From positions 1-32,693 of the forward strand of contig VGTG01000057.1 of NCBI GenBank assembly GCA_016874795.1: DNA of 32,693 bases, given 5' to 3'. The position numbers and the translations under genes were made by a program. The stretch is from Deltaproteobacteria bacterium (GTDB lineage: Bacteria; Desulfobacterota; Binatia; UBA12015). The notes below the pieces were generated by a model that was given only the letters and a program-made list of their open reading frames with translations, was not told where the DNA came from and did not search any database. Below are positions 19,678 through 32,693 of the stretch, one piece after another (positions within the stretch are counted from its first letter, which is position 1; every line of letters starts with the position of its first letter).

Positions 19678-21182
19678 GCGGACGGCTCCTCTGGACGAAG
19701 CTCCGCGAAGTCCTCGGCCATCGCGACCGCGGTCAGAAGCGCGCGCGCCTTCCGCACGCACTCCTCGTGCTCGTACTCGGGATCGGAGTCGGCGACGATG
19801 CCCGCGCCTGCCTGCACGTACGCACGCCCGTTCGCGAGGAGAGCGGTGCGGATCGTGATCGCCATGTCCATCGCGCCCGAGAAGCCGAAGTAGCCGAGCG
19901 CGCCGCCGTAGATCCCGCGCCGGCACGGCTCGAGCTCGTCGATGATCTCCATCGCACGCACCTTCGGCGCACCGGAGAGCGTGCCTGCTGGAAAGGCCGC
20001 GCGGAGCGCGTCGATCGCGTCGAACTCGGGAGCGACCTGCCCCTCGACGTTGGAGACGATGTGCATGACGTGCGAGTAGCGCTCGATCACGAACTGCTCC
20101 GTCACGCGCACGGTGCCCGGAAGAGCGACGCGGCCCACGTCGTTCCGCCCGAGGTCGAGGAGCATGACGTGCTCGGCGCGCTCCTTCGGGTCGGCGAGGA
20201 GCGCCTCCGCGAGACGATCGTCCTCCTGCGGCGAGGCGGCGCGGGGATGCGTCCCCGCGATCGGGCGGACCATCATGCGTCCGTCCTCGAGACGGACCAG
20301 GACCTCCGGCGACGAGCTGACGACGGCGAAGTCCCCGAGCTCGAGATGCGTCAAGTACGGCGAAGGATTGATCGAGCGCAGGCAGCGGTAGACGTCGAAG
20401 GGGTCAGCCGTCGTCTCGTGGGAGAAGCGCTGCGCGAGGACCACCTGGATGATGTCGCCCGCGCGGATGTACTCCTTCGCGCGCTCGACGATCGCGCGGA
20501 ACTCTTCGGGTCGCAGCGTCGACTCGGCGGTGCGCGGCTGCGAGGGACGGAAGCGCACGGGCAACGGCGCGACGGGACCGTCGAGGCGCGCCGCGAGGTT
20601 CTCGATGCGTCTCTCCGCCTCGGCCCGGCTCTCCTCCCGCCGGCTCTCGTCCGTCACGTCCGCGTGGGACACGAGAAGAATCCGCTGCTGGCGGTTGTCG
20701 AACACCGCGAGGGTGTCGACGAGGAGCAGCACCATGTCGGGCATGCCGAGGTCGTCGGGCGGCGGCGACTCGAGCTTCTCGATCCAGCGGACCGCGTCGT
20801 AGGCGACGTAGCCGACGAGGCCTCCGGTGAGACGCGGCAGACCCGGCGGTGCGGCGACGCGGTAGCGAGCGAGGAGATCGCGCACGAAGGCGAACGGGTC
20901 GACGTTCCCATGCTCGTCGACCGCTCCGTCCCGCCACTCGACGCGCACGTCGCGCCGGCGCGCGACGACGACCGCGGCCGGGTCGGTTGCGATGTAGCTG
21001 TATCGCCCCCAGCGCTCGCCGCCCTCGGCGCTCTCGAGCAGACACCCGTAACGACCGTGGTGGAGCTTTCGGAACGCGGTGACGGGCGTGTCGCGATCGG
21101 CGAGGAGCTCGGCCCAGACGGGTACGTGCGTCACACCTTCGGCGAGGCGCTCGAACTGTGCGGCGGAAGGCGAGATCCGCAC
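19674..21182 (-). CDS. trpE: Anthranilate synthase component I
   Basis: The protein has 502 residues from GTG 21182, with GGAGGAG seven bases upstream. It converts chorismate and ammonia to anthranilate. The chorismate-binding core contains [56 protein letters not shown] and [16 protein letters not shown] at 48-51 is the tryptophan-binding motif, so feedback inhibition by Trp is expected. It follows the SPOR gene after only a few bases, which leaves no room for a leader-peptide attenuator. Confidence 0.96.
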
Positions 21183-21186
21183 GGTC

Positions 21187-21885
21187 TCACTCCTCCGCCA
21201 GATAGGCGCGCGTGAACTGCTCCTCGTCCTTCAAGCGCACCAGCACCGCCGTCGCGGACTCCATCGTCGGGAAGCGTCCGACACGGACCCGATAGACCGG
21301 CTCGTCCCGGTAGACGACCTCGATCGCGTACGCGTTGTAGCCGCGCTGGCGGAGGCGCTGCACGATCCGCCGCGCCGTGTACGCGTCCTTTGTCGCGTTC
21401 ACCTGCACGCTCCACCTGCCGCGCGGCGCTCCGACCATCGACGAATCGCGTCCCGCGGTCGGAGCGGCGACGACCTGCGTCGGTGCGGAGGCCGTCGGCG
21501 AAGGTGCGATGGCGCGCTCGGTCGCCTTCGGCGAAGGCGCCGCACTCGGACCCGGGCTCGCCGTCGGCGCGGGCTCCGTCGGTGAAGGCGCGGGACGGAC
21601 CGCGAGCTGCAAGCCGGCGCTCGGCTCGGCACCGGGCTCCGCGGGTGCGACTGGCGCGTCCGGTGCGGCGGGAACGCTCCTGCTCGCCGTTCCCGTCCTC
21701 CCCATCGAAGCCGGATCGATCGGCAGACGCTCGACGCGCTCCTCGCGCGCGAGACGGCTCTCCTGCAGGCCCTTTCCGACGAAGATCCCGAGGAAGAACA
21801 CGACCAGCGAGCCGCCGAGGAAGACGAGGATCAGCCCGAAGACCTCGAGCCACCCGAACTCGAACCGCCGCGACCCGCCCGCCAT
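21187..21885 (-). CDS. SPOR-domain membrane protein
   Basis: The protein has 232 residues. A cytoplasmic stub is followed by one membrane segment (about 13-36), a low-complexity Ala/Pro/Thr/Ser linker (about 70-150), and a C-terminal SPOR domain (155-232; RWSVQVNATKDAYTARRIVQRLRQRGY and YRVRVGRF). SPOR domains bind glycan strands lacking stem peptides at division sites; FtsN and DedD have this architecture. The gene starts three bases after the argS stop, and argS-SPOR pairs are common in proteobacteria. The role at the septum is inferred from the domain; it has no FtsN-specific motif that I can point to. Confidence 0.9.
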   Translation of the reverse strand: MAGGSRRFEFGWLEVFGLILVFLGGSLVVFFLGIFVGKGLQESRLAREERVERLPIDPASMGRTGTASRSVPAAPDAPVAPAEPGAEPSAGLQLAVRPAPSPTEPAPTASPGPSAAPSPKATERAIAPSPTASAPTQVVAAPTAGRDSSMVGAPRGRWSVQVNATKDAYTARRIVQRLRQRGYNAYAIEVVYRDEPVYRVRVGRFPTMESATAVLVRLKDEEQFTRAYLAEE

Positions 21886-21888
21886 GGC

Positions 21889-23547
21889 CTACATCCGATC
21901 CGGAGCGCTCACGCCGAGGATGCCGAGGCCCGCGGCGATGGTGCGCTGGACGACGTGGAGGAGGACGAGCCGGGCCGTCACGCGCTCCGGCGCCTCGTCG
22001 CCGAGGATGCGGTGCCGGTTGTAGTAGCGATGCAGGCTCGCCGCGAGCTCCTGCAGGTAGAAGACGATCCGGTGCGGCTCGAGCTCGCGCGCCGCGAGAG
22101 CGACGGTCTCCGCGTAGAGAGCGATCTGGCCGATGAGCTCGAACTCCTCGCTCTCGCCGAGCGGCTCGAGAAGGGACGCATTCGCCGGTCCCTCCGGCAC
22201 CGCGACGCCCTGACGGCCCGCTTCCGCGAAGAGGTTCGAGATCCGAGCGTGTGCGTACTGGACGTAGAAGACCGGATTGTCCGTCGAGCGTTTGCGGGCG
22301 AGGTCGAGATCGAACTCGAGATGGCTGTCCGACTTCCGGCAAAGGAAGAAGAAGCGAGCGGCGTCGACGCCGACCTCGTCGAGAAGCTCGTCGAGCGTGA
22401 CGTACTCGGCGCGGCGGGTCGACATCTTCACCTGCTCGCCGTGCCGCGTGAGCGTGACGAACTGGTAGATCACCGCGCGGATCGTCGAGATGTCGTGCCC
22501 GAGCGCGACGAGCGCCGCGGCGACGTCTCGGTGCTGCGAGATGTGATCGGCGCCGAGGACGTCGACGATCAGATCGAAGCCCCGTGCGAGCTTGTCCTCG
22601 TGGTAGGCGATGTCCGGGAGCCGGTAGGCGGGCTCTCCCGTCCCCTTCACCAGAACGCGGTCCTTCTCGAGGCCGACCTTCTCGCCGACCAGCCACACGG
22701 CGCCCTCGCGGCGGTCGACGAGGCCGCGCTCGTCGAGAGCGGCGACGACGCGCTCGATCGCGCCCGACGCGTAGAGCGAGTCCTCGTTGAAGTAATGATC
22801 GAAGACGATGCCGAGGCGCTCCTGGGTGCGCCGGATCTCGGCGAAGATCGCGCTCTCGGCGGCGGCGCGAAAGGCGTTGCCCTCGTGGTCGGCGAGCGAT
22901 TCCCCGTGCTCGTGGCGCAGCGAGCGCGCGATGTCGCGAATGTAGTCGCCCTGGTAGCCGTCCTCCGGGAACTCCGAGGGTCGTCCGATCTCCTCGAGGT
23001 AGCGCGCCCGCACGCTCGCTCCGAGAACCTTCATCTGCCGGCCGGCGTTGTTGAAGTAATACTCGCGCTCGACCGCGTATCCTGCGGTCGAGAGGAGGCG
23101 CGCGACGGTGTCGCCGAGGACCGCGTTCCGGCCGTGTCCGACCGTCAACGGACCGGTCGGATTCGCCGAGACGAACTCGACCTGGGCGCGCTTTCCCGCC
23201 TCTTCCGAAACGACACCGAGAGCCGGCTCGGCCGAGAGACGCGCGAGCTCGGACCTCCAGAAGCCGGGCGAGAGCCGCAGGTTGAGAAAGCCCGGGCCGG
23301 CGACCTCGGAGGAGGTGATCCAGCCTTCGGGGTCGTCGAGGTGCTCGCGCAGGATCTCCGCGATCGCGCGCGGCGACTTGCGCTCGCTGCGTGCCATCGT
23401 CAGCGCGAGGTTGCTTGCAATATCGCCATGCTCGCGATCCTTCGGCACCTCGACCGAGACGGGCTCGTTCGTGCTGGAGCCGAGCTTGCCCTCTCGTCGC
23501 GCGGCCGCGAGCGTTCGCTCGAGGACCTCCTCGATCCGCCGCTTCAT
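21889..23547 (-). CDS. argS: Arginyl-tRNA synthetase
   Basis: The protein has 552 residues, normal for bacterial ArgS. It is a class I synthetase that attaches arginine to tRNA-Arg. The HIGH motif appears as TVGH (135-138) within SANPTGPLTVGHGRNAVLGD; the KMSKS-like motif is KMSTR (374-378), followed by the DALR anticodon-binding domain ending in HVVQRTIAAGLGILGV. The N-terminal Add1 domain has KDREHGDIASN. ATG 23547 lacks a strong Shine-Dalgarno (CGGGCGG just before). It is the first gene of the long minus-strand block and divergent from the beta-helix gene. Confidence 0.96.
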   Translation of the reverse strand: MKRRIEEVLERTLAAARREGKLGSSTNEPVSVEVPKDREHGDIASNLALTMARSERKSPRAIAEILREHLDDPEGWITSSEVAGPGFLNLRLSPGFWRSELARLSAEPALGVVSEEAGKRAQVEFVSANPTGPLTVGHGRNAVLGDTVARLLSTAGYAVEREYYFNNAGRQMKVLGASVRARYLEEIGRPSEFPEDGYQGDYIRDIARSLRHEHGESLADHEGNAFRAAAESAIFAEIRRTQERLGIVFDHYFNEDSLYASGAIERVVAALDERGLVDRREGAVWLVGEKVGLEKDRVLVKGTGEPAYRLPDIAYHEDKLARGFDLIVDVLGADHISQHRDVAAALVALGHDISTIRAVIYQFVTLTRHGEQVKMSTRRAEYVTLDELLDEVGVDAARFFFLCRKSDSHLEFDLDLARKRSTDNPVFYVQYAHARISNLFAEAGRQGVAVPEGPANASLLEPLGESEEFELIGQIALYAETVALAARELEPHRIVFYLQELAASLHRYYNRHRILGDEAPERVTARLVLLHVVQRTIAAGLGILGVSAPDRM

Positions 23548-23600
23548 CCGCCCGGCCGCTCGGCGTGCCGGAGGCTCTGGTTCCGGCTCCGCACGACTTG

Positions 23601-23629
23601 TCGCTACCGGGTTCCCAGAAGACTTTCAA
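23601..23629 (-). promoter_or_regulatory. Candidate promoter for the argS-trp-lptD block
   Basis: On the minus strand TTGAAA (23629-23624), five of six matches to the sigma70 -35, is followed after 17 nt by TAGCGA (23606-23601), a weak -10. The start would fall near 23594, about 47 nt before the argS ATG. The surrounding 23600-23790 is visibly less GC-rich than the genes on either side. No Trp-rich leader peptide or T-box-like signature is evident here. Confidence 0.4.
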
Positions 23630-23776
23630 TTGTACGGGTCGCCACGGGTGTGGGACGCGCACCACGTAGTTTCCGGCGATGGAAATCGCGTTGGAGGCTT
23701 CAAGTTCGAGAACGCAGCTGATATGGGTGCGCCTTCCAGGGTCGCAGATTCCACAGTCCCGTAACCTCAACCTCAT

Positions 23777-23800
23777 CCCCGAGCCTTTTGTTTCTCGGGG
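23777..23800 (+). promoter_or_regulatory. Stem-loop just upstream of the beta-helix gene ribosome site
   Basis: CCCCGAG (23777-23783) pairs perfectly with CTCGGGG (23794-23800) around a T-rich 10-nt loop. The stem ends five bases before the AGGAG (23806-23810) of the plus-strand gene. There is no T-run after it on either strand, so it is not an obvious terminator. A 5'-UTR role in mRNA stability or translation is inference. Confidence 0.5.
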
Positions 23801-23815
23801 AAACCAGGAGTGGCC

Positions 23816-25744
23816 ATGGGAGCCTCCAGGTCTTCGAAGACAGCCGCGGCAAGGGTACGAACGAGCATCGCGCTCGCTTCGACCTGGATTTCGGCGATCG
23901 GCCTCTCGGCGCAGCCGGCCGAGGCGCAGCCGTCGACCGACTGGCGCGACTACACGATCGTGGCGCGCGAGCGCCTGCTGATCGATTCCAACCTCAACAT
24001 CAACGGGAGCTTCGCGGTCATCGACGCCGAAGGCCTCCTGCGCGTCGGGCAGGCCACCTTCCAGCACGACGGCGCGCCCGACCCGCTGATCGCCGCGGAC
24101 ATGGTCGTCCTCGTGCAGCAGTCGTCGGTCGTCGACGTGTTCACGAACTCGCTGCAGCAATCGCCGACGGCCCAGATCCGCGGCACGCTGACCCGGCCGT
24201 TCCACTTCCCTCTCGGGATCGTCCTGCCGCCGCTCCCGGCGGCGGTGTTCGATCCGTGCATCCCGAGCGCGCAGGACTTAGTCCTGCCGAACGGGGACAC
24301 GCACCAGCTCGTGCCCGGATGCTACGGCCGGGTCACCGTTCGTCAGGACGCCCACCTCGTCCTGGACGCCGGGGTCTACCGCTTCCGCGATCTGATCGTG
24401 AGGAAGCGGGGGGAGATCCTGACCCAGGGCGGAGCGGTCGACGTGAACGTCCGCGAGCGGATCCTGACCGAGGAGGACGCGAACCTTCGCGCCTCGAGCG
24501 GCGATCCGGACGACCTGCAGTTCTGGATCGGCTCCGACGGGGGCTCCCAGACCTCGATCGGGAAGTTCTCCACCGTGATCGGGACGCTCTTTGCACCGAA
24601 CGACACGGGCTTCGACTTCAAGCGGAACGTCACGCTGATCGGCAGCGCGGTCGCCCGGACCGTACGACTCGCCGGCGAGCACGGCGAGCGCCCCCCGACG
24701 CCGACCCCGAGCCCGACTCCGACACCCACGCCGACGCCAAGTCCCACGCCGACGCCGACGCCCACACCGACCCCAACGCCTACGCCGACCCCGACTCCGA
24801 CGCCGAGCCCCACGCCGACCCAGGTGCCGCCGACGCCCACGCCCACGATGCCCTTCCAGCCGTCGCCGACGCCGACTCCCTTCTGCAAGGAGGACGTCGA
24901 CGCGGCCTGCACCCTCTACGTCGTCAGCAGCTCGGCGCCGGTTCCGCCGGCGTTCTCGAAGCTGCAGGCGGCCGTCGATGCAGCCGGCCCGACCGACGTG
25001 ATCTGCGTCTTCGCGAGAACCAACGAGAACGTCGTGATCGACGAGGGTCACACCATCGAGGTCACGCAGTGCACCGTCGCCGAGGTGACGGCGACGAGCT
25101 CCGCGTCGCCGGCGATCCGGATCGCCGGGACGCCGAAGGTCCTGATCATCGGGCTCGACACCGTCGGCGGCAGCGCCGGCTTCCAGGTCGACGGCAACGG
25201 CCACGAGCTCCGCGGCGTACGCGCGCGCGGCAGCGCCGGCTGCGGAATCGTCGTCAACGGCGACGGGAACGAGGTCTCCGTCAACCGGGTCGAGCAGAAC
25301 GCGCAGTGCGGGCTACGCCTCGTCGGTGACGGCAACCGCGCGCGCAACGGCAAGTATAGCGAGAACCCCGTCGGGATCGAGGTGCCCGGAGATCGGAACG
25401 TGCTGCGCGGCGTGACGGTCGAGTGGAACTCTGGCGCCGGAGCGGTCGTCACCGGTGCGGGGAACGAGCTGAACGGCGTGCGCGCGTTCGACAACGTCGG
25501 CAACGGGTTCACGATCCGCGGAGCCGGCAACAAGCTGCTCTCGAGCCAGGGTGACGACAACGGCGGCAACGGTGTCCGCGTCGAGACCCAGGCAAGCGGT
25601 ACGCTCGTGAAGAGCGATGCGGTCGAGGACAGCGGCGCCTGCGGCTTCCTGGTCGAGGGAGCGGGAACGAACGACGGCGGTGGGAACAATACCGTCAACG
25701 GACGCCGCTTCGAGAACATCGAAGCCGGCGGGTGCTTCCACTGA
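23816..25744 (+). CDS. Exported protein with Pro-Thr linker and C-terminal beta-helix-like repeats
   Basis: The protein has 642 residues from ATG 23816, with AGGAG five bases upstream (a GTG at 23810 overlaps that site). A signal peptide ends near AEA (35-37). The N-terminal domain (about 38-290) is rich in beta-type sequence ([67 protein letters not shown]), like exported polymer- or surface-associated proteins that I cannot name. Residues 293-355 are an almost pure Pro-Thr/Ser linker. After CKED, residues about 370-642 contain Asn/Gly-rich repeats such as [33 protein letters not shown] and [14 protein letters not shown], the pattern of right-handed parallel beta-helix (PbH1) repeats. Such proteins are often secreted lyases or surface adhesins. 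No catalytic residues can be assigned. It is a single-gene unit. Confidence 0.88.
24692..24880 (+). repeat. Pro-Thr (PT)n coding repeat
   Basis: About 63 codons alternate Pro with Thr, occasionally Ser, giving a near hexanucleotide CCNACN periodicity. The third bases vary (ACG, ACC, ACT, ACA; CCG, CCC, CCT), so the peptide repeat is maintained with many synonymous changes. It encodes the flexible linker between the two domains of the exported protein. Such linkers are typically stiff, protease-resistant spacers. Confidence 0.9.
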
Positions 25745-25767
25745 GGCGCAGCGATGCGAGTGTGTGT

Positions 25768-25922
25768 GAGCCGCGAGGGGTGTGGGGCGCGCTCCGGGTC
25801 GCATCGTCACCGTACGACCATCGTCGCGGCGTGGAGCGCCGTCGCGCAGCGACGGCGATTCGGGGGAACCTGCCTACGCGAGCACGTGCGACCCGGAGCG
25901 CGCCCCACACCCCTCGCGGCTC
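25768..25922. repeat. Palindromic element: perfect 36-bp inverted repeat around an 83-nt core
   Basis: The segment 25768-25803 (starts GAGCCGCGAGGGG, ends GGGTCGCA) is the exact reverse complement of 25887-25922. The 83-nt core holds a second hairpin at 25837-25857: arms CGCCGTCGC and GCGACGGCG with a GCA loop. The element sits between two convergent gene ends, 24 bp after the beta-helix stop and 36 bp before the rplQ stop. It has no evident ORF of its own, no T-run and no obvious target duplication. It could be a bidirectional terminator, an extragenic palindromic repeat, or a MITE-like insertion. Confidence 0.85.
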
Positions 25923-25958
25923 CACCGAGACGACTACGCGACGGCCGCCCCTCTCCTG

Positions 25959-26393
25959 CTATTTCGCGGCTTCGGCTTCGGTGCTCGTCTTCTTGGTGCG
26001 GCGGCGCTTCCGCTTCTTCTCGGACTCGACGCTCTCGGACGTGCCGGTGAGTTCGATCATCGAGAGGCGCGCGGCATCGCCGACGCGCGTGCCCAGCTTG
26101 ATCACGCGCGTGTAGCCGCCCGGCCGCTCCGCGAACCGCGGCGCGACGTCATCGAAGAGACGGCGCACGACCTTCGGATCGCGCAGAAACGCGATCGCGC
26201 GGCGGCGCGCCGCAAGCGTCCCCTGCTTGCCGAGCGTCACCATCCGGTCGGCGAAGCGGCGGACTTCCTTCGCCTTCGCGTCGGTCGTGCGAATCCGGTC
26301 GCGGGCGAGAAGCTCTCGCACCAGGTTCCGGTACAGAGAGGCCCGATGCGCCGAAGTGCGGCTGAGCTTCTTTCCTGAATTCAGATGTCGCAT
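25959..26393 (-). CDS. rplQ: 50S ribosomal protein bL17
   Basis: The protein has 144 residues. The N-terminal [20 protein letters not shown] is the hallmark of bL17, followed by [26 protein letters not shown] and the [17 protein letters not shown] core motif. It sits near the peptide exit tunnel. The last 25 residues ([12 protein letters not shown] then acidic/Ala) are an extension. ATG 26393 has GGAG eight bases upstream. It is the last gene of the alpha operon, as usual. Confidence 0.97.
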
Positions 26394-26412
26394 TGTCGTG
26401 GCTCCGCCCGGC

Positions 26413-27447
<1,035 letters not shown>

Positions 27448-27498
27448 GTTCAACTCCCCCGATCGTCCGGTCTTGCACCGGCCGTCGTCGAGCCGTCC

Positions 27499-28125
27499 CT
27501 ATTTCGAGTACAGCTCAACGATGAGCGTCTCGTTGATCGGCATGGTGAGATCCGCACGCTGCGGGAATGCCTTCACCACGCCCGTGAATGCCTCGCGATC
27601 GAGCTCCAGCCACTCCGGAACTCCGCGGCGCTGCGACAGCTCGAGCGATTCGACGATGCGCGCGACCTTCCGGCTGCCCTCGCGGACGGTCACCTTGTCG
27701 CCTTGCTTGACGAGGAACGACGGGATCGTGACCTTCCGACCGTTCACCGCGAAGTGACCGTGGCGCACGAGCTGGCGCGCTTCCGCGCGCGAGTTCGAGA
27801 AGCCCATGCGGTAGACCGTGTTGTCCAGGCGCCGCTCGAGCAGGACGAGCAGCGTCTCTCCGGTGACCGTGCGGCCGCGCTCCGCCTCGTGGAAGTAGCG
27901 GCGGAACTGCCGCTCGAGGACCCCGTAGATCCGCTTCACCTTCTGCTTCTCACGAAGCTGGACGCTGTACTCCGAGAACTTGTGCCGCCCCTGGCCGTGC
28001 TGGCCTGGGGGGTAGTTCCGGCGTTCGATCGCGCACTTGTCCGTGAAGCAGCGTTCGCCCTTCAGGAAGAGCTTCATCCCTTCCCGACGGCACATCCGGC
28101 AGACGGATGCGGTGTTTCGCGCCAC
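27499..28125 (-). CDS. rpsD: 30S ribosomal protein uS4
   Basis: The protein has 208 residues from GTG 28125, with AAGGAGAG upstream and one base after the rpsK stop. Zinc-type uS4: C9, C12, C26 and C31 near the N-terminus, then [21 protein letters not shown] and the S4 RNA-binding domain [17 protein letters not shown]. It nucleates 16S 5'-domain assembly, and in several bacteria it represses the alpha operon. Confidence 0.97.
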
Positions 28126-28126
28126 G

Positions 28127-28609
28127 TCAAACTCTCCTTCGCTTGGGTGGCCGGCACCCGTTGTGCGGGATCGGCGTCACGTCCCGGATCATGGTGACCG
28201 AGAATCCGGCCGCCTGCAGGGAGCGCAGAGCGGGCTCGCGCCCTCCGCCCGGTCCTTTCACGAAAACCTGAACCGTCCGCATGCCCGCGTCGGCGGCCTT
28301 CTTCGCGGCACTCTCGGCCGCGAGCTGCGCCGCGAACGGAGTTCCCTTGCGCGAGCCCTTGAAGCCGACCGAGCCGGCGCTCGCCCAGGACACCGCACCG
28401 CCCGTCGTGTCGGTGATCGTGACGATGGTGTTGTTGAAGGTGGAGTGGATGTGCACCACCCCCTCCGACACCATCCGGCGACCCTTCTTCCGCTTCGCGG
28501 CACCACCGGCCGCGGCGGGAGCGGCCGGAGGCGCTGCGCCTGCGGCGGGCTCGGCCTTCTCGGCCGCCGCCTCGCGCCCGCTCTCTTCGTTGTCTTCCGG
28601 TCTTGCCAT
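28127..28609 (-). CDS. rpsK: 30S ribosomal protein uS11 with N-terminal extension
   Basis: The protein has 160 residues, about 30 longer than usual. The core (from about 45) has [58 protein letters not shown], and the end [14 protein letters not shown]. The first about 38 residues are Ala/Pro/Glu-rich low complexity ([10 protein letters not shown], then [12 protein letters not shown]). It is part of the 30S platform near the mRNA exit. ATG 28609 follows rpsM by ten bases. Confidence 0.96.
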
Positions 28610-28619
28610 CTACTCTTCC

Positions 28620-29003
28620 TCAGCCCTTCGGCGGAGCCATCTTCTTGCCGGCGACCGTGCGGCGCGGTCCCTTCCGCGTGCGCGCATTCGTGTGCGTGCG
28701 CTGGCCGCGAACGGGCAGATTCTTTCGGTGACGAAGGCCGCGATAGCAGCCCAGGTCGACGTAACGCTTGATGTTGAGGGTGACCTCGCGGCGGAGGTCG
28801 CCTTCGACCTTGTACGACTGGTCGATCACGCGGCGGATGCGCTGGACCTCGTCCTCGCCCAGGACGTCGGTCTTCGCGCTCCCCTCGACCTGGGCCTCGC
28901 TGCAGATCTTCAGCGCGAGGCTCCGGCCGATGCCGTAGATGTAGGTCAAGCCAATGTCGATTCGCTTGTTTCTCGGAAGGTCGACGCCAGCAATGCGTGC
29001 CAT
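28620..29003 (-). CDS. rpsM: 30S ribosomal protein uS13
   Basis: The protein has 127 residues from ATG 29003 (GGAGG three to four bases before); a longer frame upstream is not coding. The start [26 protein letters not shown] and the end [17 protein letters not shown] are diagnostic. It lies in the 30S head and contacts tRNA and the 50S subunit. Confidence 0.97.
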
Positions 29004-29020
29004 GGATCCTCCGGACCGCC

Positions 29021-29134
29021 TCAGCCCTGACGCTGCTTGTGACGCGGATTGACGCAGATCACCCGCACTACGCCTTGACGGCGGATGACCTTGCACTTCG
29101 GACAAATCTTCTTGACGGAAGGACGGACTTTCAC
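29021..29134 (-). CDS. rpmJ: 50S ribosomal protein bL36
   Basis: This is a 37-residue gene from GTG 29134, with AGGAG seven bases upstream. The sequence starts [17 protein letters not shown] and ends PRHKQRQG. The zinc ligands C11, C14, C27 and H32 are all present, so this is the zinc-binding form. It lies between infA and rpsM, the classic position. Confidence 0.97.
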
Positions 29135-29144
29135 GGCTGCACTC

Positions 29145-29363
29145 CTACTTCGCTCGATACGTGATGCGTCCGCGGCTCAGATCGTACGGCGAGAGCTCGA
29201 CCGTGACCTTGTCGCCGGGGAGAATCTTGATGTAGTGCATCCGCATCTTTCCCGAGATGTGGGCGATGATGCTGTGGCCGTTCTCGAGGGCCACTCGAAA
29301 CATCGCATTCGGCAGGGATTCCTGCACCACACCGTTGACCTCGATCGCATCTCCCTTGGGCAT
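29145..29363 (-). CDS. infA: Translation initiation factor IF-1
   Basis: The protein has 72 residues, the standard length, with a single OB/S1 domain: [52 protein letters not shown]. It binds the 30S A site during initiation. Between map and rpmJ, with 18 bp after map. The Shine-Dalgarno is weak. Confidence 0.97.
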
Positions 29364-29381
29364 CGTCGCTCTACTGCGCCC

Positions 29382-30158
29382 TTACGGGTGCTCCGTCCCG
29401 AGCGACGTCAGGATCTCGGGACCATTTGCGGTCACGGCGACCGAGTGCTCGAAGTGCGCCGACAGGCGGCGGTCCTTCGTCACGGCGGTCCACCCGTCCT
29501 CGAGAACCTCGACCTCGTACGTTCCCGCGCAGACCATCGGCTCGATCGCGAGCACCATTCCTTCCTTCAGCCGAGGGTTCTGACCGCGGCTCACGTAGTT
29601 CGGAACCTGCGGCTCCTCGTGGAGACGCTGTCCGATCCCGTGGCCGACGAAATCCCGCACGACGCCATAGCCGTGCGCCTCGGCGTGCGTCTGGATCGCC
29701 TCGGAGACGTCGCGAATGCGGTTTCCGACGCGCAGCTTCTCGATGCCGCGATCGAGCGCTTCGCGCGTCACCCGGATCAAGTCGTGCGCTTCCCGGCTCG
29801 TCTGGCCGACGCCGACCGTCAACGCGCCGTCGCCGTAGTAGCCCTTGCGTACCACGCCGAAGTCGAGGCCGACGATGTCACCGTCCGCGAGCACGCGCCT
29901 CGGAGAAGGCATGCCGTGCACGACTTCTTCGTTGATCGAGACGCAGAGGGTCGCGGGATAGACGCGCCCTCCGACGACGTAGCCCTTGAAGGCGGGCTCG
30001 GCGCCGCTCTCGCGCGTCCACTGCTCTGCATAGCGATCGAGTTCGCCGGTCGAGATTCCCGGACGCACGAGCTCGCTCAAGCGCGCGAGCGTCTCGGCGA
30101 CGATCTGGCACGCGGAGCGGATCAGGTCGATCTCCCCCTGGCTGCGACGCACGATCAT
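29382..30158 (-). CDS. map: Methionine aminopeptidase, type I
   Basis: The protein has 258 residues from ATG 30158, which overlaps the adk stop (ATGA). The pita-bread metal site is complete: D99 (GLDFG), D110 (YGDGA), H173 (GHGIG), E206 (IEPM) and E237 (FEHS). It removes initiator methionine from nascent proteins. Its place between adk and infA is a common spc-operon arrangement. Confidence 0.97.
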   Translation of the reverse strand: MIVRRSQGEIDLIRSACQIVAETLARLSELVRPGISTGELDRYAEQWTRESGAEPAFKGYVVGGRVYPATLCVSINEEVVHGMPSPRRVLADGDIVGLDFGVVRKGYYGDGALTVGVGQTSREAHDLIRVTREALDRGIEKLRVGNRIRDVSEAIQTHAEAHGYGVVRDFVGHGIGQRLHEEPQVPNYVSRGQNPRLKEGMVLAIEPMVCAGTYEVEVLEDGWTAVTKDRRLSAHFEHSVAVTANGPEILTSLGTEHP

Positions 30159-30820
30159 GCCGCGCCTCGGCCGGCGAGGCCTTCGAGCAGCCTCTGGAAG
30201 ACGTCGTCCCGTGAGCCCGTACCGTCGACTTCGACGAGCGCGTTGCGCTTGCCGTAGTAGGCGAGAAGCGGCTCGGTCTCGCGACGGTAGACCTCGAGGC
30301 GCGCGTGGATCACGTCTTCCCGGTCGTCGTCGCGCTGATAGAGCTCGCCGCCGCAGCGATCGCAGACGTCCGGCTTCTTCGGCGGGCTGGAGACGAGGTG
30401 GTACATCGCGCCGCACGGGCGGCAGGTACGTCGCGAGGAAAGACGCTTGATCACGACTTCCGCGGGCACGCGCAGGCTCAGCGCGAGGAGCGGACCTGCC
30501 TCGCCGTTCAGCTTCTCGAGGTCCTCTGCCTGGCGGATGGAACGCGGAAAGCCGTCGAGGATGTAGCCGCGCGCGCAATCCGGCGCGCCGATCCGATCAC
30601 GCACGATTCCGAGCATGATCTCGTCGGGAACGAGCTCTCCCCTGTCCATCAGCCTTTTTGCCTTCTTGCCCAATTCCGAACCACGCTGCGCTTCGTCGCG
30701 GAGCATTCCACCCGTCGAGATGTGCGGCACCCGAAGGTGCTCTGCCAGCAGATCCGCCTGCGTACCCTTTCCCGCTCCCGGGGGTCCCATCAGGACGAGG
30801 TGCGATCGGCTCACTGCCAT
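30155..30820 (-). CDS. adk: Adenylate kinase (zinc LID type)
   Basis: The protein has 221 residues. The P-loop is GPPGAGKGT (12-20); HISTGGMLRD binds AMP; GYILDGFPRS is family-typical. The LID carries four cysteines C133, C136, C153 and C156, so a structural zinc is expected. It equilibrates ATP, ADP and AMP. It lies 18 bp after secY. ATG 30820 has only a weak ribosome site. Confidence 0.96.
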   Translation of the reverse strand: MAVSRSHLVLMGPPGAGKGTQADLLAEHLRVPHISTGGMLRDEAQRGSELGKKAKRLMDRGELVPDEIMLGIVRDRIGAPDCARGYILDGFPRSIRQAEDLEKLNGEAGPLLALSLRVPAEVVIKRLSSRRTCRPCGAMYHLVSSPPKKPDVCDRCGGELYQRDDDREDVIHARLEVYRRETEPLLAYYGKRNALVEVDGTGSRDDVFQRLLEGLAGRGAA

Positions 30821-30838
30821 GTGGACGCCGCGGCTCTT

Positions 30839-32149
30839 CTAACCGCGCCGCCCGCGAATACGGCCGCGCTTCATGAAACCTTCGTAGTTTCGAGTCAGGA
30901 GGTGTGTCTCCATCTGCGCGACCGTATCCAAAGCCACTCCGACGACGATCAGGAGCGCCGTCCCACCGAAGAAGAACGGCACGTTGAACTGCTGGATCAG
31001 GATCGTCGGAAGGACGCACACCGCCGAGATGTAGATCGCTCCGCCGAGAGTGAGCCGCGTCAGGATACGGTCGATGTAGTCCGCCGTCCGCTTGCCCGGC
31101 CGGATACCTGGGATGTACCCGCCGAACTTCTTCATGTTGTCGGCGACCTCGACCGGGTCGAAGGTCACCGCGGTGTAGAAGTAACAAAAGAAGACGATCA
31201 GCACCACGTAGACGACGTTGTAGAGGAGGTTGCCCGGGGACAGCAGCTCGGCCGCCCGGTCCGCCCACGGGTGCTGGAGGAAGCTCGCGATCGTCCCCGG
31301 GAAGATCAGGATCGACGACGCGAAGATCGGCGGAATGACCCCCGCCGTGTTGATCTTGAGAGGCAGGTGCGAGCTCTGGCCGCCGTACATGCGCCGGCCG
31401 ACGACGCGCTTCGCGTACTGGACCGGAATGCGCCGGTGCCCGCGCTCGACGAAGATGATGAAGCCGATCACGACGACCATCAGAGCGGAGATGAACAGCA
31501 CCGTGAAGAGCGAGAGCTCGCCCTCGTTCATGAACTGGACCGTCGTCGTCACGGCCGAGGGAAGTGCCGCGACGATGCCCGCGAAGATCACGAGCGAGAT
31601 GCCGTTCCCGATGCCCCTCTCGGTCACCTGCTCGCCGAGCCACATGATGAAGGCCGTGCCCGCGGTCAAGGTCACCATGCTCATCAAGCGGAACGACCAG
31701 CCCGGGTTGTACACGACGCTGGCGCCGCCCGGGGCCTGGATCTGCTCGAGCCCGATGCTGATGAAGAGGCTCTGGATCAGGGCCAGGACGACGGTGCCGT
31801 ACCGCGTGTACTGCGTGATCTTGCGGCGGCCGGCTTCGCCTTCCTTCTTCAGGTTCTCGAGGGTCGGGATGACGACCGTCAGAAGCTGCAGGATGATGGA
31901 CGCGCTGATGTACGGCATGATGCCGAGCGCGAAGATCGAGAAGCGCTCGAGCGCGCCTCCCGAGAACAGGTTGACGAGCCCGAAGACGTCGTTGGACGCC
32001 TCGGCGAAGAACGCCTGCATCGCCTTGCCGTCGATGCCCGGCGTCGGGATCGCGACCCCGACCCGGTAGACGGCGATCATACCGGCGGTGAAAAGAAGCC
32101 GCTTCTTCAGCTCCTCGACGCGCAGCGTGTTCGAGAAGCCCGTCGTCAC
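30839..32149 (-). CDS. secY: Preprotein translocase subunit SecY
   Basis: The protein has 436 residues from GTG 32149, overlapping the rplO stop as GTGA. Ten membrane segments are visible. Family signatures include YRVGVAIPTPGID, GIMPYISASIILQLL, YTRYGTVVLALIQ and, near the end, GGTALLIVVGVALDTVAQME. It forms the SecYEG protein-conducting channel in the inner membrane. Confidence 0.97.
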   Translation of the reverse strand: MTTGFSNTLRVEELKKRLLFTAGMIAVYRVGVAIPTPGIDGKAMQAFFAEASNDVFGLVNLFSGGALERFSIFALGIMPYISASIILQLLTVVIPTLENLKKEGEAGRRKITQYTRYGTVVLALIQSLFISIGLEQIQAPGGASVVYNPGWSFRLMSMVTLTAGTAFIMWLGEQVTERGIGNGISLVIFAGIVAALPSAVTTTVQFMNEGELSLFTVLFISALMVVVIGFIIFVERGHRRIPVQYAKRVVGRRMYGGQSSHLPLKINTAGVIPPIFASSILIFPGTIASFLQHPWADRAAELLSPGNLLYNVVYVVLIVFFCYFYTAVTFDPVEVADNMKKFGGYIPGIRPGKRTADYIDRILTRLTLGGAIYISAVCVLPTILIQQFNVPFFFGGTALLIVVGVALDTVAQMETHLLTRNYEGFMKRGRIRGRRG

Positions 32150-32589
32150 TCGATCACCTCGGCCGTTCCCCCCTGGCTCTCGATGGCCTCGCGGGCGGAG
32201 CGGCTGAAGCCGTGCGCCTTGACGGTGAGCTTCCGGTCGAGCGCGCCGGTGCCCAGGATCTTGATCGGCAGGCCGGTCTTGCGTGCGACGCGCGCGCGCA
32301 ACATGGCCTCGGGGTCGACGACGCTGTCCGCGTCGAAGCGCGAGAGGGTCGTCAGGTTGACGACCTGCATCTCGCGACGGAACGGGTTGTGGAAGCCGCG
32401 CTTCGGCAGACGACGCTGAAGCGGCATCTGGCCGCCCTCGTAGCCGGGCTTCGAGTTTCCGCCCGAGCGCGAGTTGCGGCCCTTGTGTCCGCGGCCCGCG
32501 GTCTTGCCGTTGCCGGATCCGGTGCCGCGGCCGACGCGCTTGCGCGCGCGGCGCGATCCCGTTCCGGGCTGGAGGTTGGAAAGATCCAC
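32146..32589 (-). CDS. rplO: 50S ribosomal protein uL15
   Basis: The protein has 147 residues from GTG 32589. The N-terminal half is a basic, Gly-rich tail (RKRVGRGTGSGNGKTAGRGHKG, broken here only by family-typical Gly) and QMPLQRRLPKRGF; the C-terminal part has LTVKAHGFSRSAREAIE. Immediately after rpmD and before secY, the standard order. Confidence 0.96.
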   Translation of the reverse strand: MDLSNLQPGTGSRRARKRVGRGTGSGNGKTAGRGHKGRNSRSGGNSKPGYEGGQMPLQRRLPKRGFHNPFRREMQVVNLTTLSRFDADSVVDPEAMLRARVARKTGLPIKILGTGALDRKLTVKAHGFSRSAREAIESQGGTAEVIE

Positions 32590-32594
32590 GGCGA

Positions 32595-32693
32595 TCAGCC
32601 CTCCTCGACCGCGAGCAGGTGAGCGACGGCGCGGATGCGGCCGCGCATCTGCGGCGTGTCCGCGACCATCGAACGCGAGCCGCGCCGGCGAAG
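32595..32693 (-). CDS. rpmD: 50S ribosomal protein uL30, C-terminal part
   Basis: An open frame enters from the window edge and stops at TGA 32597-32595. The 32 visible residues, LRRRGSRSMVADTPQMRG then IRAVAHLLAVEEG, match the C-terminal half of uL30 (cf. 'vxDtPxxrGmixkVxhLV'). It lies directly before rplO, as expected. The start lies outside the window. Confidence 0.9.
   Translation of the reverse strand, partial: LRRRGSRSMVADTPQMRGRIRAVAHLLAVEEG

Follow-up and report, generated by a model that had tools for sequence, protein, structure and literature searches.

A perfect 36-bp inverted repeat beside rplQ belongs to a low-copy family of dispersed palindromes whose arms drift in step

The inverted repeat between the beta-helix gene and rplQ is one copy of a family of dispersed palindromes (family A), represented by at least seven copies in the host genome. 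The copies are dispersed, share a core, lie 3′ of genes and have arms that have drifted in pairs. On balance, we favour the reading that family A is a low-copy family of palindromes of about 150 bp that are tolerated after genes and whose arms are homogenised at the DNA level. It would be an old palindrome, perhaps useful after genes.

Geometry and fold of the element

A repeat search of the window, i.e. the whole 32,693-nt stretch of DNA analysed here, recovered the geometry described in the initial annotation, with arms complementary at 36 of 36 positions and 83 nt apart (Table 1). A script that required a 12-base seed, a minimum of 18 matched bases, identity of 90% or more and a spacer no longer than 250 found this to be the only inverted repeat in the window, while looser criteria also returned longer-spaced or imperfect repeats, the runner-up being 34 nt at 74%. 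The same script found no such repeat in 400 kb of order-2 Markov sequence, nor in 320 kb of the congener G001. Chance is a poor explanation for a 36-bp inverted repeat.

The element occupies 155 of the 214 bp that separate the stop of the beta-helix gene (25744) from that of rplQ (25959). The fold energy of positions 25755–25935 was −134 kcal/mol (z = −10.8), shuffled sequences averaging −88.6 (sd 4.2), and that of the opposite strand was −133.9 kcal/mol (z = −10.5); none of 200 shuffles matched either strand. The 9-bp hairpin previously noted within the core was present in the minimum-energy fold, pairing 25837–25845 with 25849–25857 (coordinates counted by hand). Its seven modelled pairs (helix 3) were preserved in all five aligned copies, with 100% of cells paired.

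Table 1. Coordinates of the element, its neighbours in the window and example copies of family B
Feature	Position	Strand	Description
Left arm	25768..25803	+	36 bp, 36/36 complementary to right arm
Core	25804..25886	+	83 nt, asymmetric; from core alignments; sets element orientation
Core hairpin	25837..25857	+	9 bp, GCA loop; minimum-energy fold
Right arm	25887..25922	+	36 bp
Beta-helix gene	23810..25744	+	Right-handed beta-helix protein, PF13229; stop 23 bp before element
rplQ	25959..26393	-	Ribosomal protein L17, PF01196; stop 36 bp from element
argS	21889..23547	-	Arginyl-tRNA synthetase; split from rplQ by beta-helix gene and element
Family B examples	L079:10958-11137, L085:12987-13172, L044:4342-4527		

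Copies of family A in the host genome

The host genome (G000), from an uncultured bacterium, is a draft of 6,266,316 bases (6.27 Mb) in 360 contigs, with an estimated contamination of 2.46%. It contains six full-length copies of family A, including that of the window (C57), and one half-copy, all in unrelated contexts. A DNA search of the genome added the copies on C104, C60, C87 and C40 and the half-copy on C82, of which only the right half was present (read by eye). The sixth full copy, on C110, was found with a covariance model built from five copies. All seven loci came up again when the C60 copy served as the query of another DNA search. The covariance search evaluated 150 out of 15,537 initial candidates, so that a few more copies are possible. 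The initial annotation had named multiple copies with differing flanks as support for a mobile or REP-like family, and copies of this kind, six full and one remnant, are what the searches returned. Because of them, its option of a dispersed extragenic palindrome is right, all seven copies lying outside called genes; the qualifier "genome-wide" was too strong for the seven found at this depth of search.

A full copy measures about 150 bp. Its outer stem is long (30–36 bp) and encloses an asymmetric, conserved core that carries a small hairpin. The arms paired at 36/36 positions in C57, 31/31 in C104, 30/30 in C60, 28/30 in C87, 27/30 in C40 and 29/30 in C110, the last having a mismatched segment inward of the paired stretch of stem. 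The cores of five compared copies were 15–34% different. Among the six full copies there were two core types, one shared by C60, C87, C40 and C110 and the other by C57 and C104. The orientation relative to the upstream gene was mixed.

Within the limited searches made, family A is so far known from the host genome alone, and its sequence distribution is best read as lineage-restricted. Strict filters gave no copy in 57 relatives, and laxer filters none in three congeners plus ten further members of the family. For each genome these model searches scored 52 or 150 candidates out of an initial list of hundreds to thousands, so that diverged copies could be missed, in the host genome as well. A model search of 67 sources, including 800 kb of the host genome and 320 kb of G001, yielded no added copy, and eight further weak matches (E = 0.24–0.89) at seven places. 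In 49 sources, 37 of them from 80 rplQ loci, there was no match at E up to 0.1, and blastn gave no DNA match in plasmids or phages at E up to 1e-5. Neither the species-genome collection nor IMG/VR gave a match to the core pattern. This is a partial negative, as the pattern was drawn from the C60/C87/C40/C110 type, misfits the C57/C104 type, and was run on collections from which the host's own records were possibly excluded. Two weak DNA matches within the family, one in G013 (E = 2.6e-4) and one in G006 (E = 2.9e-4), were rejected since their surroundings fold without a long stem, and a match on L091 (E = 3e-5) in the model search of 67 sources was a family D hairpin (see below) unrelated to family A.

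The RplQ proteins of the congeners were 82–83% identical to that of the window. The closest named relatives by RplQ were MAGs titled bacterium, Deltaproteobacteria and Proteobacteria, with Candidatus Binatia further down, so that a position of the host within Binatia is tentative; the second match, titled Klebsiella pneumoniae, is presumed to be a mislabelled MAG.

Other hairpin families in the same genome

In 800 kb of the host genome we found 25 long inverted repeats, none of which was family A. Sorted by hand, 15 were assigned to family B, four to family C and three to family D, leaving three others. Family B has palindromic 178-bp bodies that differ from the first copy by at most four bases and are bordered by CTAG on both sides in 13 of the 14 examined. 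Its arm occurred 122 + 123 times in the host genome (at most two mismatches) and not at all in three congeners. From its sequence, family B looks like a recent MITE burst. Family A is unlike such a burst, with diverged copies, variable arms and no duplication detected. Several family B arm matches lay about 100 bp from contig ends, and the burst therefore probably fragments the assembly.

Family C (L084:17654-17821, L088:12506-12602, L104:1-164 and L106:1-162) was also palindromic, with the arm TGCACCGCCGTCGAGATAGCGTCAA and with CTAG at its ends, or part of it where a contig starts inside the element; the version on L088 was shorter (97 bp). Family D (L091:9952-10036, L099:6079-6165 and L114:14277-14359) comprised near-perfect hairpins of about 85 bp with loops of 3–7 nt.

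Genomic placement

All seven copies of family A were located 12–90 bp downstream of a stop codon, one between convergent genes, six between tandem genes and none between divergent genes, with genes called by a custom GC3-based script rather than a standard caller and the bounds of the C82 remnant estimated. Under a crude independence model, the probability of seven out of seven after-stop placements was about 0.003. About 43% of the intergenic bases in an 800-kb sample of the host genome lie within 100 bp 3′ of a stop, and 9 of 15 family B copies (14 of the 15 sample copies and one on L044) were within 100 bp of one, partly because the CTAG flank can supply a TAG stop. Given this background and the family B count, the 3′ bias of family A is suggestive, and its placement only mildly unusual. 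The neighbouring genes include rplQ, groEL (28 bp upstream of its copy), a multihaem cytochrome c gene and an acetyl-CoA hydrolase/transferase gene.

In all three congeners argS directly follows rplQ on the same strand, an order also present in L138 and L139, which are the closest named relatives. At greater distance the arrangement is not general: out of 83 loci inspected, 9 had argS no more than 800 bp from the rplQ match, and these five belong to the nine. Since the beta-helix gene and the element separate these two genes in the window, the element looks to be at one edge of an apparent lineage-specific insertion; insertion of the element by itself does not follow from this comparison. The argS leader (approximately 23548–23637, minus strand; AATTGAAA...GGGAACC.GGTAGCGACA) resembled those of the three congeners by eye and is possibly a regulatory signal. 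Inside the beta-helix gene, positions 24695–24843 encode a Thr/Pro-rich repeat linker with a degenerate 6-bp repeat array.

Evolution of the arms

The arms were compared in five copies, leaving out the C110 copy and the C82 remnant, neither of which is in alignment A2. Within copies there were 5 mismatches in 150 positions, whereas combining arms of different copies among these five gave at least 25 mismatches in every arrangement (mean 32.75); pairwise, the arms of different copies differed at 1–9 of 30 positions. Greater arm identity within than between copies, as observed here, is expected of an inverted repeat maintained by template switching. The initial annotation had taken the perfect identity of the arms as a sign of recent origin or active maintenance. 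Recent origin does not agree with the divergence of arms and cores between copies, and active maintenance gains support from it, as the arms have stayed paired within each copy. A long inverted repeat with perfect arms tends to be taken for young, and family A argues the opposite in its own case, its copies being diverged from each other and mostly self-matched.

Changes on both sides were found in 13 of 56 modelled pairs, a number reached by none of 500 column shuffles, and with the structure slid by 1–3 columns at most two pairs had changed on both sides; the copies are related, so the counts are not independent events, and the shuffle control ignores relatedness. Among the 150 cells of the outer 30 pairs there were one T–G wobble and four non-pairs. 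Helix 2 and the inner pairs of helix 1 had more wobbles, and the element is thus not devoid of RNA-type pairing. In C110 the sequence GCGCG-CGGAG-GGCGC in one arm faces GCGCG-CTCCG-GGCGC in the other, an exact 5-bp inversion of the kind that template switching can leave. Any homogenisation of the arms is incomplete, as is evident from the mismatched inner segment of the C110 stem and from the three mismatches in C40.

According to PMC8794818, G–U is the commonly presumed intermediate of compensatory changes, and template switching can create and maintain hairpins. According to PMC8604942, template switching homogenises arms and inverts spacers; that paper also cites earlier work on short repeats in non-coding proteobacterial DNA. 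The paired drift in family A suggests copying from arm to arm at the DNA level, with or without selection on the hairpin. Such selection may also keep the arms paired, and the two are not separable in these data. Apparent compensatory changes often count as proof that an RNA is functional, and family A offers a natural test of whether template switching in DNA, rather than selection on RNA, can yield them.

Beyond these observations, we infer past mobility, template switching and any effect on RNA. Copies would have spread as non-autonomous DNA and would survive mainly at tolerated sites just 3′ of genes. Their arms would be kept identical by replication of one arm from the other on a folded-back strand, and the stem would drift in step on both sides because one arm is copied from the other. 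A transcript running in from either flanking gene would fold here into a hairpin of high stability, which would probably protect or end it. A reading as intrastrand triplex repeats, as described in part of PMC4666352, was set aside; one arm per full copy was 57–63% purine.

Alternative explanations

Selection on RNA is central to the alternative that the element is a functional bidirectional 3′-end structure, which would block read-through or stabilise or process 3′ ends and so keep its stem. We regard this as unlikely, though deserving serious weight: the position of all copies shortly after stop codons and of none between divergent genes, the equal fold strength on both strands, the copy between convergent genes, that close behind groEL and the G–U pairs of the inner stem speak for it. 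It is opposed by the near absence of wobbles from the outer stem, the mixed orientation relative to the upstream gene, the finding of seven copies, and the three congeners, in which no inverted repeat follows rplQ. The element also has no U-tract and the terminator scan reported nothing at it; an intrinsic terminator was rejected, with no site called on either strand and flanks devoid of a T-run. A conserved core and a covarying stem would likewise suit a structured non-coding RNA family with several copies, which we hold to be very improbable. No Rfam family was assigned to positions 25600–26100, where the one match up to E = 1, MIR1858, scored 30.6 bits against a gathering threshold of 137. 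We take MIR1858 to be a plant family. A sigma-70-type scan, which covers that type alone, predicted no promoter at 20000–32693, and the mixed orientation relative to the neighbours does not favour an RNA family either. An assembly artefact is barely credible: the draft state of the genome and its estimated contamination would allow for one, but the copies lie inside contigs and have different flanks and diverged cores.

Mobility, as proposed in the initial annotation, is unproven: no target duplication was found, no autonomous partner recognised and no clean empty site seen. The suggested check of the flanks revealed no direct repeat above random expectation at any of the six full copies, and no transposase partner was recognised. 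Four sites were compared for an empty site (rplQ, groEL, CoA-transferase and cytochrome), of which rplQ was informative, and none was clean. Among the matches of a DNA search of the fragmented host assembly (E ≤ 10; 40 of 162 scored), no longer element with the same ends was recognised. A classical MITE, which would be the deleted form of an insertion sequence and rely on a transposase specific for fixed terminal repeats, seems improbable to us. Its size, terminal repeats, dispersion and confinement to the host genome all fit, and the same genome carries the apparent recent burst of family B, but the terminal inverted repeats of family A are not fixed, as the arms differ between copies. A repeat class with copy-specific arms is a further reading, which we consider quite unlikely: here the core and the property of being a perfect palindrome would be inherited, and continual template-switch copying would maintain the palindrome. 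The terminal sequence would then drift freely and could not serve an ordinary transposase for recognition, and spread would require either the core or the folded hairpin.

Comparison with known systems

Template-switch-maintained hairpins resemble the palindromes of family A in having homogenised arms, multi-base compensatory changes and short inversions, as reported in parts of PMC8794818 and PMC8604942. The cases described there concern RNA genes as well as short repeats within coding genes of yeast, whereas family A is a dispersed bacterial repeat, and in the open-licence literature we found no description of template switching in a repeat of that kind. Nor did we find in that literature a described case of a dispersed palindromic repeat in the phylum of the host.

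RUP, NEMIS/Correia and ERIC MITEs are, like family A, short, non-coding and dispersed, with paired ends (PMC2229807, in part); they have terminal repeats with TA ends and target duplications, in contrast to the variable arms of family A, where no duplication was detected. REP/BIME sequences with GTAG or CGTC tags share with family A that they are extragenic palindromes near the 3′ ends of genes, with subfamilies that have alternative complementary stem residues (PMC3733652, in part). As described in the same source, REPs are high-copy repeats of 20–40 bp with a terminal tag, most GTAG-family stems being 6–9 bp, and GT pairing is often observed. Family A, with seven copies found, is about 150 bp long and has a stem of 30–36 bp, no such tag visible at the ends inspected and few such pairs in its outer stem.

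YPAL/RU-2 of Yersinia (approximately 168 bp) is similar to family A in length, in forming a stable hairpin, in its intergenic location and in being neither A+T-rich nor bounded by TA, a likeness of descriptions (PMC2229807, in part) rather than of compared sequences. YPAL has been listed among stem-loop families with a predicted conserved structure, and excerpts of that paper (PMC2267715) make no mention of compensatory changes. The description of YPAL in PMC2229807 includes target duplications of 3–26 bp, empty and filled sites and seven contiguous pairs, whereas family A has nearly perfect stems of 30–36 bp and no duplication was found. Family A occurs at several unrelated loci, forms hairpins and is extragenic in all seven cases, as dispersed bacterial palindromic repeats are. 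Because it departs from the defining features of both MITEs and REPs in the tests run, it is best filed under this broad kind only, as YPAL/REP-like in placement and folding.
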